A stretch of DNA of 52,161 bases from Chthoniobacterales bacterium (GTDB taxonomy: Bacteria; Verrucomicrobiota; Verrucomicrobiia; Chthoniobacterales; UBA6821): NCBI GenBank assembly GCA_026461395.1, contig JAPJNA010000025.1, forward strand, positions 1 through 52,161. Reading direction: 5' to 3'. Of this stretch, positions 12,986 to 32,369 are shown in pieces (position 1 is the first letter of the stretch; every line of letters begins with the position of its first letter). The translations under genes were made by a program, and so were the position numbers. Under the pieces are notes generated by a model. It was not told the origin of the DNA. It saw nothing but the letters and a program-made list of their open reading frames with translations, and did not search any database.

Positions 12986-14560
12986 TCAAGAAAAACTCTC
13001 TTGATGATGGCTCAAGGAGTCTAAAAAGCTCTCCGCCTCGGCGACGATTTTAAGACGCTCCTTGGCATCACGTTTTTGCCATGACCGGACAGGCATTGCG
13101 GTTCTCGGATTTCGGATTAAGAGATCCTGATTCGTATGGAAAAAATTCCAATAGAGTAAATTCAGTGGGCAGGCCCCTTTACCGCTCTTGATGCTGGGAC
13201 TGAATGAACAAGAGCTGCAATAGTTGCTCATTTTGCTGATGTAGGCGCCACTGGCCGCATACGGCTTGGTAGCCATGAATCCACCATCCGCGTGGAGGGC
13301 CATGCCGAGCACATTTGCAGCCATCACCCAATCATGGGCATCGACATACATTTCGTTAAACCATCGGAGAGCTTCCTGAGGGTTAATCCCAGCCATCAGT
13401 AAAAAGTTCCCCAGAACCATGAGCCGCTGGATGTGGTGATTGAAACCCTTATCTAGCGTTCCCCGCAGGGCTGTGGACAAGCAGTTCATCGAGGTCTCAC
13501 CGGAGTAGAAGAACTCGGGTAGCGACCGTGTTGCGCTAAGACCATTGACCGAGGCGTACTCAGGCATTTTTAGCCAGTAGACACCGTTCACAAACTCCCG
13601 CCAGCCGATCACTTGCCTGATAAATCCCTCCACGGCATGGAGAGGTGCCTTCCCTTCTTTAAAGGCCTTCTCTGCCGCCAGCGCGCACTCCATCGGGTCG
13701 AGCAATCCAATGTTGAGCATTGGTGAGAGGATGGAATGAAAGAGATCGCTATCTTCCGACACCATCAAGTCCTGCCAGGTGCCGAATTCCGGCAAGCGAG
13801 ATTCGATGAATTCACGAAGACATTCCAGGGAGACCTCCCTCGTAACCGGCAAGGCAAAGTCAGCGGCTTTACCCAGTGCATCCGGGTAGATCGTTGCCAA
13901 CTCACGAGCGACTTCCTGTGTGATTTCATCCTGTGGCAGCTGACGCGAGTGTTTCGGTCGAGGCATGCCCGCTTTCTTCCAGTCGGCAAAGGTAGCGCGA
14001 TTCTCCTGATCGTAGTTCCACTGCCCTCCGAGTGGCTTGGAGGAATCATCAGCCTCCATAAGCAGTCCCGTGCGACGACGCATCTCGCGATAAAAGGTCT
14101 CCATGAGAAGACGCTTCTTAACACCTGCCATCTCCAGAAAATCCTCCCGGGAGCACAAAAACTGAGTCGTTGGGATGATCGTTAGCGGGACAGGTAATTT
14201 AATTCCCAACATCTTCAGCGCCAACTGCTCGTCATAATTATTCGGCTGGGTAACAAGAACGGATGAAGGCTTTTGATCCCTGCAATGCGCTTCCAAAACG
14301 GATCGCATATCAGCTGCATTCTCCAACCGATGGTACTCCACGTCCCACCCATCAGCTTTCCGTTCCTCTGCGTAGTGTCGCATGGCAGAGAGCAGAAGCA
14401 TGAGACGATGCCTATGGTAGGGCAACTTGCCGAATGTCTGTCTCGACTCAACAAAGAGGAGGCGATCCCTCCCCTTTCTGGCCGATACGAGGGCCGCATT
14501 ACGCTCCGAGAGCTGATCCGGGAGGATCAAAATGGAGTGCTTTTCAGAAGAAATAGGCAT
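12986..14560 (-). CDS. Cryptochrome/photolyase-related protein (PhrB-like, FeS-BCP type)
   Basis: ILILPDQLSERNAAL N terminus, GWREFVNGVYWLKMPEYASVNGL, HHIQRLMVLGNFLLMAGINPQEALRWFNEMYVDAHDWVMAANVLGMALHADGG, Cys-rich C terminus (NYCSSCSFSPSIKSGKGACPLN). Confidence 0.92.
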   Translation of the reverse strand: MPISSEKHSILILPDQLSERNAALVSARKGRDRLLFVESRQTFGKLPYHRHRLMLLLSAMRHYAEERKADGWDVEYHRLENAADMRSVLEAHCRDQKPSSVLVTQPNNYDEQLALKMLGIKLPVPLTIIPTTQFLCSREDFLEMAGVKKRLLMETFYREMRRRTGLLMEADDSSKPLGGQWNYDQENRATFADWKKAGMPRPKHSRQLPQDEITQEVARELATIYPDALGKAADFALPVTREVSLECLREFIESRLPEFGTWQDLMVSEDSDLFHSILSPMLNIGLLDPMECALAAEKAFKEGKAPLHAVEGFIRQVIGWREFVNGVYWLKMPEYASVNGLSATRSLPEFFYSGETSMNCLSTALRGTLDKGFNHHIQRLMVLGNFLLMAGINPQEALRWFNEMYVDAHDWVMAANVLGMALHADGGFMATKPYAASGAYISKMSNYCSSCSFSPSIKSGKGACPLNLLYWNFFHTNQDLLIRNPRTAMPVRSWQKRDAKERLKIVAEAESFLDSLSHHQESFS

Positions 14561-14707: not shown

Positions 14708-15499
14708 ATGAGCAATAATCTTTCGACCACAGAGAAACATCTTGCAGAAACGCTTAGGCCTGACCTGCAGGCTATTGAGTCACATCCGGTTTTTGGTTCA
14801 GTTCAATCGGAAGCCCAGCTCCGCACGTTCATGGAGTATCATGTCTTTCCCGTCTGGGATTTCATGTCTCTACTGAAGTTTCTGCAGGCCGAGCTTGCTC
14901 CCGCCACTTGGCCTTGGATGCCCCGGCCCCATGGCGATCTTGTGCGGTTGGTCAACGACATCGTGACCGGTGAGGAGTCTGACAAGCTTCCGAAATCACA
15001 CCGGTTGGAGAGCACCCATGCAAGTCACTTCGACCTCTACCTCATGGCGATGCGCGAGGTCGGGGCCGACACCGCCCCGATCACCGAGTTCCTCAAGGTC
15101 GTCCGATCACGGGGGCTTGATGCCGCTCTTGAGGCACCGATGGTGTCAGAACCCTCGCGGGCCTTCATGAAGGATACCTTTGCTCTACTGCGCGAGGGGA
15201 AAGCTCATAACGTCGCGGCCTCGTTCTCCTTCGGCCGCGAGAACGTCATCCCCGGCATGTTCAACTCGCTACTGGACAAGCTCGGCATCGGCGAGGATCG
15301 GGCCCCGATCTTCCATTATTATCTCAAGAGGCATGCCGAACTCGACGGCGACGAGCACGGGCCAGCCGCGCTCCGTCTGGTAGCCACGCTCTGCGGCGAT
15401 GATCCGGCAAAGCTCACGGAAGCCATCGAGGCCGCAAAGGCCGCCCTTGCGAGCCGTGCCCGTCTCTGGGACCGCGTGCAGGGAACGCTGAACGCCTGA
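14708..15499 (+). CDS. DUF3050 domain protein (heme-oxygenase-like fold)
   Basis: LRTFMEYHVFPVWDFMSLLKFLQ...HFDLYLMAMREVGADT...FHYYLKRHAELDGDEHGPAALRLV. Confidence 0.85.
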   Translation: MSNNLSTTEKHLAETLRPDLQAIESHPVFGSVQSEAQLRTFMEYHVFPVWDFMSLLKFLQAELAPATWPWMPRPHGDLVRLVNDIVTGEESDKLPKSHRLESTHASHFDLYLMAMREVGADTAPITEFLKVVRSRGLDAALEAPMVSEPSRAFMKDTFALLREGKAHNVAASFSFGRENVIPGMFNSLLDKLGIGEDRAPIFHYYLKRHAELDGDEHGPAALRLVATLCGDDPAKLTEAIEAAKAALASRARLWDRVQGTLNA

Positions 15500-15509
15500 T
15501 ACCCTCGTC

Positions 15510-15677
15510 ATGCGCCGCGAGGGAAAAGCGGTCCGCAAGTCCGATCTTCCGGAGAAGATCTGCCTGCACTGCAACCGCCCGTTCGCATGGCGCAAGAAAT
15601 GGGAGCGCGACTGGGAGTCCATCACCTGCTGCAGCGAAGCCTGCAAGGGAGAGTTAAAACGAAGCCGTCGCAAGTAA
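15510..15677 (+). CDS. DUF2256 small Cys-rich zinc-ribbon-like protein
   Basis: 55 aa, MRREGKAVRKSDLPEKICLHCNRPFAWRKKWERDWESITCCSEACKGELKRSRRK; below the ORF-track length cut-off. Sits in the DUF3050-photolyase gap, ending 2 nt before the photolyase ATG. Confidence 0.85.
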   Translation: MRREGKAVRKSDLPEKICLHCNRPFAWRKKWERDWESITCCSEACKGELKRSRRK

Positions 15678-15679
15678 TC

Positions 15680-17119
15680 ATGAACACTCGGGAGCGGGTT
15701 CATCTGGTCTGGCTGAAGAGGGATCTGCGCCTCCACGATCATGCCCCACTGGCTGAGGCTTCGCGGCGGTGTGCCGCAGGAGAAAAAGCCCTCGCCCTCT
15801 ATGTCCACGAGACAGACTACTGGGCTACCGACAAGGCCTCGCCGGATCAATGGGGGTTTGTGGCGGAATGTCTGCGGGACCTTGCGACGAAGCTTGAAAA
15901 AATCAACTGCCCATTGCTGATCGCGGAAGCTCCCTCCGCAGAGATCGTGTTGGAATCCTTCTTTGATCACTACGAGGTAGCGGAACTCCTCTGCCATCAG
16001 GAAACGGGCAACGGCTGGACCTTTGATCGGGATAAGCGCGCGCTTTGGCTTTGCAGGGAACGAAGCATCCCTGTGCGAGAATTTCTCCAGAACGCCGTGG
16101 TTCGTGGCCGGAACAGACCACCCGAGAAGCCAGAGCATCAGTCTTTATGGAGAGAGTGGATTTTGGAAGTGCAAGCCCCGACCCCTCGGTTCTGGAGCGC
16201 CCCTTCCACCCTGCCGCCGCAGTTCGCCTCCCCCGATCTCTCGACACCGGCAACCATCACGCGTCAACGTGGCGGCGAGGCTCGGGCTCTCGGGTTGCTG
16301 GAGAGTTTCCTGAACGAGCGTTGTCTCCTGCACGACGGATACCGTGTGGAAATGGGAAGCCCCCTGCATGCCCACGAGGCCTGCTCACGCCTCTCCCCGC
16401 ATCTTACCTGGGGGAGTCTCTCGACAAAGCGGGCGTCTCAGGACGCCATGGCACGAGAGCCGCGCCCACCTCACGGGAGCATGATGCACCGCAACAGCTT
16501 CCACCGCCGGCTTCGCTGGCGGGATCATTTCCTGCAGAAATTCGAGTCGCTGCCATGGATGGAATTCCGCTGCATTAATCCCTCGAGGGAAACTCTCCAC
16601 GGATGGGATCAAGTTGCTTATGAGCGCTGGGTCTCGGGCATGACGGGATATCCTTTCGTCGACGCCTGCATGCGCTCGCTCAATGCCACGAAATGGATCA
16701 ACTTCCGCGCCCGGGCCATGCTTGTCTCGTTTGCCTCCTATGCGCTCAATCTCGATTGGCGGCGATTTGCTCCCCATCTCGCGCGCACATTCCTCGACTA
16801 CGAACCAGGTATCCATTACAGCCAGCTCCAGATGCAGGCGGGCACCACCTATGGCTCCCCTCCGAGGATATACAATCCGATAAAGCAGTCTCTGGAGAAG
16901 GATCCCGATGGGGAATTTATCCGCCATTGGGTTCCGGAGCTTCGCGATATTTCAAGCAACTCAATTCATCTTCCCCAAGACGTCAACCGACCGGGCTATC
17001 CAGCCGCAATCGTCTCACCAGGATCGCTCTGGCGCGTCATGCGATCAAACGGCCCAAAGACTCAGAATTCTAAGACAAAGAAACCTGAGCTTCAGCCGGA
17101 GCTGTTCCTTCCCGATTGA
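15680..17119 (+). CDS. FAD-binding deoxyribodipyrimidine photolyase/cryptochrome family protein (non-canonical FAD-domain motif)
   Basis: LVWLKRDLRLHDHAPLAEA antenna domain; RRLRWRDHFLQKFE...MTGYPFVDACMRSLNATKWINFRARAMLVSFASYALNLDW...PPRIYNPIKQSLEKDPDGEFIRHWVPEL. Confidence 0.9.
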   Translation: MNTRERVHLVWLKRDLRLHDHAPLAEASRRCAAGEKALALYVHETDYWATDKASPDQWGFVAECLRDLATKLEKINCPLLIAEAPSAEIVLESFFDHYEVAELLCHQETGNGWTFDRDKRALWLCRERSIPVREFLQNAVVRGRNRPPEKPEHQSLWREWILEVQAPTPRFWSAPSTLPPQFASPDLSTPATITRQRGGEARALGLLESFLNERCLLHDGYRVEMGSPLHAHEACSRLSPHLTWGSLSTKRASQDAMAREPRPPHGSMMHRNSFHRRLRWRDHFLQKFESLPWMEFRCINPSRETLHGWDQVAYERWVSGMTGYPFVDACMRSLNATKWINFRARAMLVSFASYALNLDWRRFAPHLARTFLDYEPGIHYSQLQMQAGTTYGSPPRIYNPIKQSLEKDPDGEFIRHWVPELRDISSNSIHLPQDVNRPGYPAAIVSPGSLWRVMRSNGPKTQNSKTKKPELQPELFLPD

Positions 17120-17152: not shown

Positions 17153-18157
17153 ATGAGCTCGGCTTCCCACTGGATCAATGCATGGCGCGGATCCCTAGCT
17201 GCCGATGCCTTAGCGATGCCTGTCCATTGGTACTACGACACGGCGGCACTCCATCGGGACTATGGGACTGTGGATCGCTTCATGGAGCCCAAGAATCCGC
17301 ATTCCGGGAGCATCCTCTGGCGTTCGCAATATCAAGCACTCAATGAGAAGGGAGACATCCTGCGGGAGCAGGCACAGTATTGGGGGCAGCGTGGGATTCA
17401 CTACCATCAGTTTCTCAAAGCAGGTGAGAACACGCTGAATTTGCGCCTCTCCCGGGAGCTCTTCGATTTTGTAAAGGAGCGAGGTGGCTATGATCCCGAC
17501 GCTTGGCTGGAGCGCTACATTGCTCGGATGCTGGAGCCTGGCTGGCATCACGACACCTACGTGGAAGAGTACCACCGTTCGTTCTTCACGCGCTATGCCC
17601 AGGGAAAGAAGCCACGGAAGTGCGGCATTAGCGATGAGCATATCGGGGGGCTCGCGACCGTCCCTGCGCTCTGTGCTGCCTTGGAGGGAATGGGGCTGCC
17701 TGAGTTGCGATCTATCGTGAAGGAGCATGTCGGTCTGACCCATGCCCATGCCAATGTCCTTCGAGCCGCAGATACGCTGGTGCGCGTGCTCTGGGGAGTT
17801 TCGCTCGGTGAGTCCGTGCATGATGTCCTCCGCCGCGAGGCTGGGGATTGGATCTCTGGCAAAAAAGCCGACTCATGGCTTCACCAAGCTGACGAGCATG
17901 TCGTCGGATCCCGCTTCAGTCCGGCCTGCTACATCGCCGACGCGATGCCGGCTTCCCTCTATCTTGTCTGGAAGTATCAGTCCGATTTCACAGCAGGTAT
18001 TGTCGCCAACGCCATGGTTGGCGGAGACAACTGCCATCGTGGAGCCGTCGTTGGTAGTATCCTCGGGGCAGCTAACGGAGTGCCGGAACGATTTCTCCTA
18101 GGAAATTCTCCTGGAAATTCTCTTGAGAAGCATGCTTCCCGAACGCCCTCGCAATGA
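17153..18157 (+). CDS. ADP-ribosylglycohydrolase family protein
   Basis: WRGSLAADALAMPVHWYYDT N terminus, LTHAHANVLRAADTLVRVLWG, and NAMVGGDNCHRGAVVGSILGAANG C-terminal motif. Confidence 0.85.
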   Translation: MSSASHWINAWRGSLAADALAMPVHWYYDTAALHRDYGTVDRFMEPKNPHSGSILWRSQYQALNEKGDILREQAQYWGQRGIHYHQFLKAGENTLNLRLSRELFDFVKERGGYDPDAWLERYIARMLEPGWHHDTYVEEYHRSFFTRYAQGKKPRKCGISDEHIGGLATVPALCAALEGMGLPELRSIVKEHVGLTHAHANVLRAADTLVRVLWGVSLGESVHDVLRREAGDWISGKKADSWLHQADEHVVGSRFSPACYIADAMPASLYLVWKYQSDFTAGIVANAMVGGDNCHRGAVVGSILGAANGVPERFLLGNSPGNSLEKHASRTPSQ

Positions 18158-19383
18158 CGAGACCCCTGCTGACGCGAGAGGAGGGCCTAAGACGTCTGGG
18201 TGGGTTTGTACCCTTTGCGGGAAGAGACTATGCCGAGCGCCGTAACTACGTACCCGGCACGGTTTCTTCGCTCTCTCCCTATGTCCGCCATCGACTCCTC
18301 ACCGAGGAGGAGATCGCTGGCGCGGTCCTGCAGCGGCACTCCTACGAGGCGGCGGAAAAGTTCCTGCAGGAGGTCTGCTGGCGCACCTATTGGAAGGGAT
18401 GGCTGGAGATGAGACCAGGAATCTGGCTCCACTACCTCGAGGATCTCCACGCCCTGCGTGAGCGCATGGATGCTGAAACAGATTTCCTTGGCCGAGTCCG
18501 AGCTGCCGAGTCTGGAGAAACAGGCATCGAATGTCTGGACGACTGGGTCAAGGAGCTGTGTGAGACGGGATACCTCCACAACCATGTCCGAATGTGGTTT
18601 GCGAGCATCTGGATTCATACGCTACGTCTGCCGTGGCAACTTGGTGCTGACTTCTTCCTACGGCATCTTCTCGATGGAGATGCAGCCTCCAATACCCTCT
18701 CGTGGCGCTGGGTGTGTGGTCTGCAGACACCAGGGAAGGTCTATGTGGCGAGCGCAGAGAATATTGAACGATACACGGAGGGGCGTTACGCCCCCTTTGG
18801 ACTCCTGGCAACAGAGACTCCGCCGATTCCTACGGATCATTCCATTCCGAAACCGCAGCTGCTTCCTGCGCGAGAGACTCATGTGCCCGGGCAGAAAACG
18901 GTTCTGCTAGTCACCGAGGAGGATCTCTCTCCGGAGAGTTGGTGTGTCCCGACGGCCGATGTGTCGGGAGTGATTCTGATTGATACAGCTGACGCCACTG
19001 CCGGGACCTCACGGAATGTAACGACCTTCAAACGGGAGGCTCTTGAGTCAACCAAGGAACGACTGGTGGCATCGGGCTACTCCTCGGTAACGCTCCTAAG
19101 TGCGTCGATGGGGACGATGGAGACGATGGGGACGCATTGGGAAAACTTGAGCCGACTCCTGCAGGCCCATTATGTTGATGGAACTTCTACCGTCAGCATG
19201 ATGGGGGCCCCGGTAGGGCCGACCCAGCAGTTCATGGATCCCTTACTCTCGCTCCTGAAGCAGGAGGGAGTGGCCGTGCGGAGATTACGAAGAGACTGGG
19301 ATGATGCCCTCTGGCCTCATGCCACGCATGGATTCTTCAGATTCAAGGAGCAGATTCCCATCGTCCTTCGGCGGTTTGCCTAG
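18154..19383 (+). CDS. Cryptochrome/photolyase FAD-binding domain protein without an N-terminal antenna domain, with a C-terminal alpha/beta extension
   Basis: Starts directly in the FAD domain (TREEGLRRLGGFVPFAGRDYAERRNYVPGTVSSLSPYVRHRLLTEEE; ETGYLHNHVRMWFASIWIHTLRLPWQLGADFFLRHLLDGDAASNTLSWRWVCGLQT); ~170 aa C-terminal extension from QKTVLLVTEEDL onward. ATGA overlap with the upstream gene. Confidence 0.85.
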   Translation: MTRPLLTREEGLRRLGGFVPFAGRDYAERRNYVPGTVSSLSPYVRHRLLTEEEIAGAVLQRHSYEAAEKFLQEVCWRTYWKGWLEMRPGIWLHYLEDLHALRERMDAETDFLGRVRAAESGETGIECLDDWVKELCETGYLHNHVRMWFASIWIHTLRLPWQLGADFFLRHLLDGDAASNTLSWRWVCGLQTPGKVYVASAENIERYTEGRYAPFGLLATETPPIPTDHSIPKPQLLPARETHVPGQKTVLLVTEEDLSPESWCVPTADVSGVILIDTADATAGTSRNVTTFKREALESTKERLVASGYSSVTLLSASMGTMETMGTHWENLSRLLQAHYVDGTSTVSMMGAPVGPTQQFMDPLLSLLKQEGVAVRRLRRDWDDALWPHATHGFFRFKEQIPIVLRRFA

Positions 19384-19404: not shown

Positions 19405-19704
19405 TCAACTCGGATCGTTTGAATTGGGTTCATCAGCATCGACGTCATCTTCATCCGATTCGTTCATAGTTCGGCCTGGGGACTTAAGACGCCTCTCAAG
19501 AAGTTTACGGTGCTTTGTGACCCGTCCTGCAACTCGCTTGCGCCACATGGCAAAACTGGAAGGCTTGAGTTCGCGACGCATGATGTCGATCACCTCATGC
19601 TCTGCAAGACCGGTGCGTGTTTTGATTTCTTCAAATGTGGTCCGATCTTCCCATGCGAGTCGGATCACCAGAGAAATCTGATCACTTTGAATTTTCCCTT
19701 TCAT
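19405..19704 (-). CDS. DUF2805/TIGR03643 family protein
   Basis: LVIRLAWEDRTTFEEIKTRTGLAEHEVIDIMRRELKPSSFAMWRKRVAGRVTKHRKL. Confidence 0.88.
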   Translation of the reverse strand: MKGKIQSDQISLVIRLAWEDRTTFEEIKTRTGLAEHEVIDIMRRELKPSSFAMWRKRVAGRVTKHRKLLERRLKSPGRTMNESDEDDVDADEPNSNDPS

Positions 19705-19713
19705 GGTGTGTGA

Positions 19714-20421
19714 TCAGTGGATTCCAATGAATTTCCGGAAGGTGAGGTTGATCCTGGGTATCGTGATCTTCTTCGTCTTGGGCATGGTGTGCACCCAGTG
19801 ATGCTGGGTAGCTCCTTTCATCACCAGCAGACTGCCATCCTCTAGGAGCACAGAGACGACCTCCCCGGACTTGCGGTGCTTCAGCTTGAAGATCCTTTCC
19901 GCCCCAAAGCTCACGGAGGCAATGAGAGGATTCTCTCCCAGGGTCTTTTCGTCATCGCTGTGCCATCCCATTCCCTCGGAGCCGTCATGGTAAAGATTCA
20001 GCAGGCAAGAGTTGAACTGGTGGCCGCACTCGCTCTCGACGCGCTCCTTGATCGTGAGAAGAGCAGGGGTCCATGGTGCCGCGACCTTGCTTGTGCCGGA
20101 ATAGGAGTAGGTGAACTCTCCATCCCCCATCCAGGCCACTTTCCGTGAGAGGATCCTTTTCTGCCCAAAGAGGATCACCTCGTCCTGCTGCCAAGGAATC
20201 CCTGCCAGGAGATCTTCAAAAAGTCGGGATGACTCCCCTTCTCCAAAGAGCGAAGGGACATATTCGACGATTCCATCATAGGGAAGATAATGAAGAAGCT
20301 GCCTTTTATTCACAGGCACAGAGGCCCCTGCTGGTGTCACGACCAGTTGGGAGGGTGATTCCAGAAACGAGGCTTGCCCACATGGCAGTGCAGCGACGTC
20401 CCAATGACGTTTCCAAACCAT
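19714..20421 (-). CDS. alkB: AlkB-like 2OG-Fe(II) dioxygenase, alkylated-DNA repair
   Basis: CLLNLYHDGSEGMGWHSDDEKTLGENPLIASVSFGAERIFKLKHRKSGE...LLVMKGATQHHWVHTMPK...PRINLTFR. ORF opens at 20622; start placed at MVWKRHWD. Confidence 0.9.
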   Translation of the reverse strand: MVWKRHWDVAALPCGQASFLESPSQLVVTPAGASVPVNKRQLLHYLPYDGIVEYVPSLFGEGESSRLFEDLLAGIPWQQDEVILFGQKRILSRKVAWMGDGEFTYSYSGTSKVAAPWTPALLTIKERVESECGHQFNSCLLNLYHDGSEGMGWHSDDEKTLGENPLIASVSFGAERIFKLKHRKSGEVVSVLLEDGSLLVMKGATQHHWVHTMPKTKKITIPRINLTFRKFIGIH

Positions 20422-20455
20422 CGGGTGACGTAGAAAAGGAGGCGCGGAATCTGGT

Positions 20456-21469
20456 TCATGAGTGTTGGTCGAGTTTAGAGAGTCGCTCCTGTAGCGGCGG
20501 GATGGGGTGAAACACTGCCGTCTTGACGGCAGAGAGGGAAATGTCCGTGGCATTGAGCCGCTCGATCTTGGAGAGGAGTTCACTGACTTCCATAGGTGAG
20601 GCGAGCGAGGCGAGAAAGGCATCGCCCCGGTTCATCCAGAACCTGTTGAGCGTTGGCCAGACAAAGAGCGCCAGAAAGCACCAGGAACTCATGACAGACG
20701 CGCCGATGAGGCCTGCTTGCACGGCATTCGCACTTGGAATGAGAGTAGCCAGCAAAATCCCAAGCAGTGTCCAGGACGCCACAATTAGGAGCGTGAGGAG
20801 CCAAGTGCCGGATTTTCTATAGCATTCCTCACGGGAGGCCATCAGCGCCGCTTCGCGAGGAGTCAGCCATTGGGCGACCGTTGCCGATAGGGAAAGAAGT
20901 CCGCGTGGGGTGATGCAGCCATTTACCGTTTCTTCGTCACCTAGATCAAACCACCGGACTGGTCTGGGCGTCACCCCCAAGGATTGCAGTTCCGCATTCA
21001 TGCTCTTTTCAAACACCTCTTTAGAAGATCCTGCTGGCGCAGAATCACCGGCAGGAACGAGCAGAAACAAAAGGATGACCACGGCGCTCGCGGCAATGAT
21101 CAGAATCGTCGTTCCGGAGCGAGAGGCTAGATGGAGTGCCGAAAAATAGATCATTCCGATCCAGAGTCCGATCAGCGTGACGAAGCGACCTCGGATCCAA
21201 TCCGACAACCAATGGCTTGCCGATTGCCCCGTGCGGCCCACGGCCTGCTCCACGGTATGTCCCGAGAGCATGTCGAAAGGGAGGTTGGCCAGTGTGACCA
21301 GGATCGCCACAGCAAGAAGGACCACCGCAATCCCCAGTAGACCGAATCCGGAAAATCCCATCGCCCACCACGATGCACTCAGAGCGAGTCCCCAGATCAG
21401 CGCAAGATTGGCTCCGATGGAGGTGATGCCTGACCAGAGGCGGATGCGTTGGTAATGGGTGGAATCCAC
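20456..21469 (-). CDS. M48/Ste24-like membrane protein, apparently catalytically inactive (no HEXXH)
   Basis: NLPFDMLSGHTVEQAVGRTGQS resembles the Ste24 'P.s.Y.tFviEe.fGfN' segment; ITPRGLLSLSATVAQWLTPREAALMASREECYRKSGTW sits where M48 enzymes carry LLeeLspeEl.AVLAHElGH; C-terminal HPIPPLQERLSKL. Confidence 0.6.
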   Translation of the reverse strand: MDSTHYQRIRLWSGITSIGANLALIWGLALSASWWAMGFSGFGLLGIAVVLLAVAILVTLANLPFDMLSGHTVEQAVGRTGQSASHWLSDWIRGRFVTLIGLWIGMIYFSALHLASRSGTTILIIAASAVVILLFLLVPAGDSAPAGSSKEVFEKSMNAELQSLGVTPRPVRWFDLGDEETVNGCITPRGLLSLSATVAQWLTPREAALMASREECYRKSGTWLLTLLIVASWTLLGILLATLIPSANAVQAGLIGASVMSSWCFLALFVWPTLNRFWMNRGDAFLASLASPMEVSELLSKIERLNATDISLSAVKTAVFHPIPPLQERLSKLDQHS

Positions 21470-24985: not shown

Positions 24986-26086
24986 ATGATTCGCTCCTTG
25001 CGGTTCTTAATGCTGGGGGTGCTTTTATTGCTGGGATGTCATCCCCCTGCACCATCCGGCGGTATGGTTTTGATCCCCGGTGGTGACTTCTTGATGGGCT
25101 CAGACGCTCCGTATGCTCTACCCAACGAGAGACCGGCTCATCAGGTGAAGGTAAAGCCCTTCTTCATGGACATCCATGCGGTCACCAATGCCGAATTTGC
25201 AAAATTCGCGAAGGCCACCGGCTATGTCACCGTTGGCGAGCGACCCGTCGATTGGGAGGAATTAAAAAAACAAGTTCCACCTGGAACACCGAAGCCACCC
25301 GCCGAGACCCTTGCGCCCGGGTCGTTGGTTTTTCATCCAACCACGGGGCCTGTGGATTTACGTGATATGTCTGCGTGGTGGCAATGGGTCAATGGCGCCT
25401 CGTGGTCTCATCCAGAGGGACCCGACAGTAACCTCATCGGCAGGGAGAACCACCCAGTGGTGCACATTGCCTGGGAGGATGCAAAAGCCTATGCGGCTTG
25501 GGCTGGGAAACGCCTCCCCACCGAGGCTGAATGGGAATTCGCAGCCAGGGGCGGAGTCAACGGTGAGCGCTACGCATGGGGTAACCAAGAGAGTCCTGAC
25601 GGGCGTTTCATGCTGAATCGGTGGACCGGACAATTTCCCTACCATGATGATGCCTCGGATGGTTTTGCCGGCACCTCGCCAGTCGGCACTTTCCCATCAA
25701 ATGGCTTCGGGCTTTATGACATGGGAGGCAATGTGTGGAACTGGTGTAGCGATATCTATCGCGCCGATGCCTTTGCTGAGGAGGCCAAGGCCGGCCATGT
25801 TTGTTGTGATCCCACCGGGCCCAAAACCTCACAGGGTGAGAAAGCCATTCTAGGTGACCCTTCCCCGCCCATGGTTCCAGGGGCAGAACGACGAGTGACC
25901 AAAGGAGGGTCTTTTCTCTGCCATCCCGACTACTGCGAAAGCTATCGCCCCTCCGCAAGACGTGGCACTCCACCTGACACGGGGAGTAGCCATGTTGGCT
26001 TTCGCTGCGCCAAGGATGCGAGTCCCCAGATCAGCGCAAGATTGGCTCCGATGGAGGTGATGCCTGACCAGAGGCGGATGCGTTGA
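24986..26086 (+). CDS. Formylglycine-generating enzyme (FGE/SUMF1) family lipoprotein
   Basis: Lipobox VLLLLGC; MVLIPGGDFLMGSD, VHIAWEDAKAYAAWAGKRLPTEAEWEFAARGG, GLYDMGGNVWNWCSD, GGSFLCHPDYCESYRPSAR, SSHVGFRCAKD. Confidence 0.93.
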   Translation: MIRSLRFLMLGVLLLLGCHPPAPSGGMVLIPGGDFLMGSDAPYALPNERPAHQVKVKPFFMDIHAVTNAEFAKFAKATGYVTVGERPVDWEELKKQVPPGTPKPPAETLAPGSLVFHPTTGPVDLRDMSAWWQWVNGASWSHPEGPDSNLIGRENHPVVHIAWEDAKAYAAWAGKRLPTEAEWEFAARGGVNGERYAWGNQESPDGRFMLNRWTGQFPYHDDASDGFAGTSPVGTFPSNGFGLYDMGGNVWNWCSDIYRADAFAEEAKAGHVCCDPTGPKTSQGEKAILGDPSPPMVPGAERRVTKGGSFLCHPDYCESYRPSARRGTPPDTGSSHVGFRCAKDASPQISARLAPMEVMPDQRRMR

Positions 26087-26146
26087 GAGTTGATTGGATC
26101 CACCGGGATAGTTTGTAAAAAAGAGAAGGCCGGGTCATTGACCCGG
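26018..26146. repeat. Right copy of the direct repeat bounding the sulfatase cassette
   Basis: See left copy at 21384; the repeat encodes the last ~22 residues of the FGE gene. Confidence 0.9.
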
Positions 26147-26151
26147 CCTTC
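26125..26151 (-). terminator. Rho-independent terminator for the minus-strand small membrane gene
   Basis: GAAGGCCGGGTCA-T-TGACCCGGCCTTC palindrome; on the minus strand it is followed by CTCTTTTTTAC. Confidence 0.7.
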
Positions 26152-26183
26152 TTCGTGAATTTGCGCTCTGGGAGAGCTGAAGA

Positions 26184-30089: not shown

Positions 30090-30164
30090 GCGCGATTAGC
30101 TCAGTGGTAGAGCGCTTGCTTCACACGCAAGAAGTCGCAGGTTCGAACCCTGCATCGCGCACCA
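30090..30164 (+). tRNA. tRNA-Val (anticodon CAC), encoded CCA
   Basis: Folded by eye: GCGCGAT-TA-GCTC-AGTGGTA-GAGC-G-CTTGC-TTCACAC-GCAAG-AAGTC-GCAGG-TTCGAAC-CCTGC-ATCGCGC-A-CCA. Confidence 0.95.
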
Positions 30165-32294: not shown

Positions 32295-32369
32295 GCGCGA
32301 TTAACTCAGTGGTAGAGCGCTTGCTTCTCACGCAAGAAGTCGCATGTTCGAATCCTGCATCGCGCACCA
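32295..32369 (+). tRNA. Diverged copy of the tRNA-Val gene with Glu-type anticodon CTC (possible pseudo-tRNA)
   Basis: GCGCGAT-TA-ACTC-AGTGGTA-GAGC-G-CTTGC-TTCTCAC-GCAAG-AAGTC-GCATG-TTCGAAT-CCTGC-ATCGCGC-A-CCA; four differences from 30090-30164, including anticodon CAC to CTC and loss of one D-stem and one T-stem pair. Confidence 0.7.

Follow-up and report, generated by a model that had tools for sequence, protein, structure and literature searches.

Inverted photolyases and ADP-ribosylglycohydrolases

Short photolyases with an inverted domain topology were named NewPHL in 2020 (Emmerich et al., NAR 48:12845, as described in PMC13274461 and PMC9426592). Members of this class (NewPHL/SPL), among them those of D. 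shibae and M. mesophilicum, repair cyclobutane pyrimidine dimers (CPDs) in single-stranded DNA (PMC13274461, PMC9426592). The same order of FAD and alpha/beta domains is found in the picocyanobacterial Phr4+Phr5 and Phr6 (PMC9426592), of which Phr4 and Phr6 carry four Fe-S cysteines in the FAD domain. In the class I CPD photolyases (E. coli PhrB, 1dnp), the antenna domain is N-terminal. The canonical ADP-ribosylglycohydrolases (ARHs; DraG, ARH1, ARH3; PF03747) possess the motifs TDD and DxDT. A binuclear metal centre activates all characterised ARHs, and in hARH3 both metals are bridged by Asp316 (PMC7050489).

The locus described here differs from known NewPHL/SPL systems in that the photolyase gene overlaps, and is translationally coupled to, a non-canonical ARH-like gene. 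The linkage of photolyases with one non-canonical ARH subfamily is the new element, and the inverted architecture belongs to the known class; the permutation surmised in the sequence-only reading of this DNA is not a novelty, having been described in 2020. No published report of a link between photolyases and this ARH subfamily was found in the literature searched, which omits most subscription papers.

Gene organization of the locus

The window, that is, the whole stretch of 52,161 nucleotides that was analysed, contains the following features of interest:

12986..14560, minus strand: FeS-BCP / DPRP-type photolyase (PF04244, E 2e-60; Cys-rich C-terminus in the sequence)
14708..15499, plus strand: DUF3050 protein with a weak haem-oxygenase-like match
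15587..17119, plus strand: conventional two-domain photolyase/cryptochrome-family protein, 510 aa (PF00875 + PF03441)
17153..18157, plus strand: P0002, non-canonical (putatively crystallin-J1-type) ADP-ribosylglycohydrolase-fold protein, 334 aa (PF03747, E 8e-41)
17420..17434, plus strand: AGENT motif, P0002 residues 90-94
18020..18043, plus strand: GGDNCHRG motif, P0002 residues 290-297, aligned to GGDxDT of DraG-type enzymes, with Cys at the bridging Asp position
18154..18157, plus strand: ATGA start/stop overlap (translational coupling)
18154..19383, plus strand: P0001, NewPHL-class photolyase, 409 aa
18154..18870, plus strand: P0001 N-terminal helical FAD/lesion-binding domain, residues ~1-239 (PF03441; invariant pocket; all-helical in AF2)
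18871..19380, plus strand: P0001 C-terminal alpha/beta domain, residues 240-409, a relocated homologue of the photolyase antenna-domain fold (AF2, Foldseek, hhalign)
19405..19704, minus strand: small DUF2805 / TIGR03643 protein, its gene convergent with that of NewPHL
19714..20622, minus strand: AlkB-like 2OG-Fe(II) oxygenase (PF13532, E 1e-36)

The ATGA overlap reported earlier between the ARH gene and the next start is present: the genes 17153-18157 and 18154-19383 share 18154..18157, the TGA stop of P0002 (18155-18157) overlapping the ATG of P0001 at 18154. Overlaps of 4 nt are by themselves frequent in operons. Several UV-repair genes are grouped in this island. P0002 is the single PF03747 gene detected in the genome.

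Two further repeats were seen elsewhere in the window. tRNA-Val(CAC) at 30090-30164 and tRNA-Glu(CTC) at 32295-32369 are separated by 2.2 kb and lie in repeats 93% identical over 89 nt. By sequence, one gene seems to have arisen from the other by remoulding and a change of anticodon. The segment 21384-21520 is duplicated at 26018-26155 (86 nt at 92% and 47 nt at 89%), with copy 1 at the start of the minus-strand gene 20456-21469 and copy 2 at the 3' end of the ORF 24986-26086.

Photolyase class and the FAD domain

In P0001, the FAD_binding_7 domain was matched at residues 70-194 (Pfam, E 4e-22), and the N-terminal antenna domain (DNA_photolyase, PF00875) was not found by Pfam search. Homology of the E. 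coli and Anacystis photolyases to P0001 begins at their residue ~205-215, which corresponds to the FAD domain. The earlier description of a protein starting directly in the FAD domain and lacking the antenna domain is therefore correct. Class I photolyases were the top PDB sequence matches, and the FAD domain and lesion-pocket residues are common to them and P0001.

Relatives of P0001 were confirmed at no fewer than 591 places in GTDB genome contigs, and the class occurs in hundreds of bacterial genomes. The best 80 of these at least 591 matches belong to Alpha- and Gammaproteobacteria, Actinomycetota, Eremiobacterota, a cyanobacterial MAG, a Spartobacteria MAG and others. Full-length relatives with 41-51% identity were found in Alphaproteobacteria (many of them Roseobacteraceae), Gammaproteobacteria, Actinomycetota, the cyanobacterial MAG and Eremiobacterota. 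About 15 of 289 Verrucomicrobiota genomes have strong relatives, mostly full-length, and the NewPHL members of this phylum are diverse, being 37-44% identical to P0001 (alignment A1). A plasmid search with P0001 returned a few near-full-length NewPHL homologues.

Eleven residues of P0001 (E73, W76, R77, N143, M147, W161, D174, D176, N180, W184 and W186) are invariant in 72/72 sequences of alignment A2. They align, in order, to E274, W277, R278, N341, M345, W359, D372, D374, N378, W382 and W384 of E. coli Phr, which we take to be the residues that contact FAD or the CPD or participate in electron transfer. No Trp of P0001 aligns with W306, the distal member of the Trp triad in E. coli. In the FAD-domain tree, P0001 falls within a 22-row NewPHL clade (UFBoot 99 / SH-aLRT 96) apart from the class I photolyases; the clade comprises proteins of Roseobacteraceae, Sphingomonadaceae, Actinomycetota and Verrucomicrobiota, and a long-branch warning applies to the outlying split and 378-aa groups of this tree.

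By clade, architecture and residues, P0001 groups with, and probably belongs to, the NewPHL/short-photolyase class, which includes the characterised D. shibae (A8LJA9) and M. mesophilicum (M7YZC8) proteins. The common traits are the FAD domain in first position, a small C-terminal domain, a length of ~400 aa, a clade with Roseobacteraceae and the full CPD pocket. P0001 is most likely a repair enzyme rather than a cryptochrome, because every residue of the lesion pocket that was compared with E. coli photolyase is invariant. The cryptochrome identity assigned in the sequence-only reading is not supported, given these retained repair-pocket and FAD residues (72/72), and the class which P0001 joins is one of CPD photolyases (PMC13274461, PMC9426592).

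The relocated C-terminal domain

The C-terminal extension noticed earlier is real and runs from about residue 240 to 409. The AF2 model of P0001 built with alignment A2 (pLDDT 93.4, pTM 0.92) has helices up to residue ~207 and a domain of alternating strands and helices from residue 249. Folded alone, the C-terminal domain shows the same elements, five strands alternating with helices, at pLDDT 90.4, so that the region is predicted to be ordered rather than disordered both alone and in the full protein.

The extension gave no significant Pfam/NCBIfam match of its own, PF00875 included, and a Foldseek search with it returned nothing below E 1e-3. The matches with probabilities of 0.99-1.00 were plant CRY1/CRY2 PHR structures, at a TMq of 0.46-0.53 over 138-152 columns (near ~1.00 and ~0.52 for the CRY PHR domains), the best E among them being weak (4e-3). 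Among viral models, Foldseek found just low-confidence Rossmann-like matches. Glucose isomerase was rejected as a relative at a TMq of about 0.25. With hhalign, the C-terminal profile aligned to the N-terminal domain of class I photolyases at E 7e-4 and 26% probability, compared with E 0.18 for the reversed-sequence control; the same comparison with the other photolyase of the window gave no signal.

Split relatives from the genus g212 (loci L197 and L201-L204) bear on the same relationship. Here one gene encodes the FAD part (262-267 aa) and another a small domain of 136 aa, and the two genes overlap by 4 nt in L197 and L201. The 136-aa domain matches PF00875 at E 2e-4, under the curated cut-off. 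With hhalign, it can be aligned across 129 columns with the N-terminal domains of class I enzymes (probability 94%, E 1e-7), and also with the NewPHL C-terminal domain (E 4e-4). On these sequence comparisons and models, the order FAD domain first, relocated photolyase alpha/beta domain second, is well supported for P0001, as the earlier reading had surmised; this order is not new. Unlike the antenna domain of class I enzymes, the related domain of P0001 is C-terminal and shorter. It is also more diverged than its counterpart in Phr4+Phr5 and Phr6, and the Fe-S cysteine pattern of Phr4 and Phr6 is absent from P0001, which has Cys only at 75, 127, 136, 188 and 264.

Other arrangements were seen among the compared loci. 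In g212 (L197:9392-10587 and L201-L204), the two-gene inverted photolyase is followed by the ARH-like gene and resembles cyanobacterial Phr4/Phr5, outside the cyanobacteria; the split FAD-domain protein of L197 has, by eye, a C-terminal CxxC...C pattern. In L039 (8736-9924), NewPHL is present as ORFs of 267 and 121 aa, divided close to the boundary between the domains, and an ARH-like gene follows with a 4-nt overlap; the division may be natural, or may reflect frameshifting or an error. The 138+257 division in L051/L186 probably reflects a frameshift inside the FAD domain rather than a domain split. FAD-first proteins of 364-378 aa in L048-L050 directly adjoin a conventional photolyase gene and have C-terminal parts unalignable to that of NewPHL; they are possibly another inverted or antenna-less photolyase type.

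Photolyase linkage in Verrucomicrobiota

Among the 289 Verrucomicrobiota genomes, NewPHL was found in 15, the ARH subfamily of P0002 in 21 and both in 10, compared with 1.1 expected (Fisher p 9e-10). A photolyase detectable with P0001 was present in 21/21 ARH genomes against a background of 87/289 (p 2e-12). When only photolyase-bearing genomes were considered, the association of ARH with NewPHL gave p 1e-4; these co-occurrence tests ignore shared ancestry.

At the level of gene neighbourhoods, 82 distinct ARH-like loci were compared, the window being counted and L051/L186 (one record) being counted once. A photolyase (NewPHL, FeS-BCP or class I) was located at most five genes away in 20 of them (p 4e-13 against 3% chance per locus, a value which is our estimate from photolyase density and not a measured null). 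By our count, these 20 loci fall in 9 of 35 Verrucomicrobiota genera. NewPHL is the neighbour in g1 (7/7 ARH-bearing genomes, including the window), g13, g37 and g40, the split inverted photolyase in g212, FeS-BCP in g67 and g75, and class I in g170 and g158. The ARH stop and the NewPHL start form ATGA in the window, L185 and L187, and GTGA in L198 from a different family. The junction is TGA/TAA, 1 nt, ATG (+2) in L043 and L205, and +19 nt in L188, L189 and L191. The tight ARH-to-NewPHL bicistron is thus present in at least two families, and the pairing with an ARH-like gene is conserved in other genomes.

This linkage could also arise if the ARH-like gene were a passenger in a light/UV-response island of photolyases, AlkB-like oxygenase, DUF2805 and FAD-dependent oxidoreductases, being co-expressed for the same stress and having no functional contact with NewPHL. 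The clustering of UV-repair genes in the window agrees with this, as do the varying neighbours of the ARH-like gene: 62/82 loci have no photolyase beside it, and DUF2805 (9 loci, the second largest neighbour family) and FAD oxidoreductase-like genes (6 and 4 loci) recur as well. However, photolyases of three classes are the commonest neighbours (17 loci in the clustering), close junctions to NewPHL (ATGA/GTGA or +2 nt) are seen again in two families, and every ARH genome of those sampled has a detectable photolyase. A passenger role is a possible but less probable explanation.

The DUF2805/TIGR03643 gene itself recurs beside NewPHL (19405-19704 in the window; L046, L075 and L112). In L215-L217 it adjoins the ARH-like gene and no photolyase was detected. 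The association is a three-way one.

Outside Verrucomicrobiota, 0/46 of the NewPHL genomes tested carried the ARH subfamily; NewPHL in general therefore does not need an ARH partner. The subfamily is rare elsewhere, with 1/194 genomes in the phylum of the cyanobacterial MAG and 5/299 in that of Thioalkalivibrio (38-41% identity). Plasmid and phage searches with the ARH-like gene gave no match.

The ADP-ribosylglycohydrolase-fold partner

P0002 shares with canonical ARHs the fold-level homology, the start of the GGD motif and profile matches to MJ1187, 2cwc and DraG. Instead of TDD and DxDT, its subfamily has the consensus motifs [AG]GENT and GGD[NS]CHRG (80 relatives aligned) together with a conserved His/Arg/Cys set. 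In a profile alignment with solved ARHs, GGDNCHRG takes the place of GGDADT/GGDTDS. No TD or DD dipeptide occurs anywhere in the P0002 sequence, and the claim is limited to this absence, the alignment of GENT with the TDD motif being ambiguous. Of the C-terminal metal motif, the first Asp (D292) is conserved; the second, bridging Asp is Cys in P0002 and is never Asp in the 80 relatives. The crystallin-J1-type label is a tentative one, given for a likeness of motifs to jellyfish J1-crystallin.

Residues H25, H83, H85, D134, R142, C157, H197 and R296 are conserved in 30/30 representatives and 80/80 relatives. Since these are conserved throughout, the sequence argues for a site that is re-purposed rather than dead. 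The loss of the metal motif would also fit a protein without catalytic activity that serves photolyase-fold proteins as scaffold or chaperone. In keeping with this, the trypanosome mitoribosome assembly complex (PDB 7pua) contains both a photolyase-like chain and an ARH-like one, mt-SAF23, which reads GGPVCQRS where P0002 reads GGDNCHRG. The very strong conservation of H25, H83, H85, D134, R142, H197 and R296 suggests, however, ligand binding or catalysis, and a scaffold role appears unlikely.

It is less likely that P0002 is an ADP-ribose eraser of the standard, metal-dependent kind. The light-controlled reversal of ADP-ribosylation proposed earlier, with an active ADP-ribose hydrolase that works on protein or DNA under the control of a cryptochrome-like sensor, would fit the gene coupling, the clear ARH fold and a site that has kept D292 and many His/Asp/Arg residues, but is very improbable given the lack of TDD and DxDT in P0002, the Cys in place of the bridging Asp (Asp316 in hARH3, PMC7050489), a genome search that found no DarT (control positive) and DRAT and PARP searches that were empty (without positive control), the 0/46 pairing in NewPHL genomes of other phyla and the retention in P0001 of every repair residue checked.

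Proposed role

Taken whole, the gene structure, domain order, fold, conserved pocket, clade and statistical linkage, as read from sequence or prediction, are best explained by a NewPHL-class photolyase co-translated with a non-canonical ARH-fold accessory of photolyase-based repair (probability about 0.82). In P0001, light-excited reduced FAD in the N-terminal helical domain would donate an electron to the cyclobutane pyrimidine dimer and thereby split it. The substrate would most likely be a CPD in single-stranded DNA, a preference which we infer from the class. The relocated C-terminal alpha/beta domain may pack on the FAD domain and cap the cofactor site in place of the N-terminal antenna domain.

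Judging from linkage and conservation, the co-translated P0002 would be an accessory protein that assists photolyase-based UV/light repair in Verrucomicrobiota. Its rebuilt His/Arg/Asn/Cys site probably serves to bind either a nucleotide/ADP-ribosyl-like ligand or the photolyase. A more far-reaching and tentative proposal is that the ARH-fold subfamily with its rebuilt non-metal site is a dedicated photolyase partner, which might bind photolyases or process a photorepair-related ligand, be it a flavin/antenna cofactor, a lesion product or ADP-ribosylated DNA. Its recruitment beside NewPHL, FeS-BCP and class I enzymes would then have taken place at least twice within Verrucomicrobiota, and the trypanosome mitoribosome assembly complex, in which both folds occur, may echo it.

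The split two-gene relatives provide a sequence bridge from the short C-terminal domain to the photolyase antenna domain, which is useful for the study of photolyase evolution. The link between photolyase and ARH, if functional, would mean an accessory protein for a DNA-repair chemistry thought to need just light and flavin. It would also be the first experimental handle on ARH-fold proteins without the catalytic metal motif.
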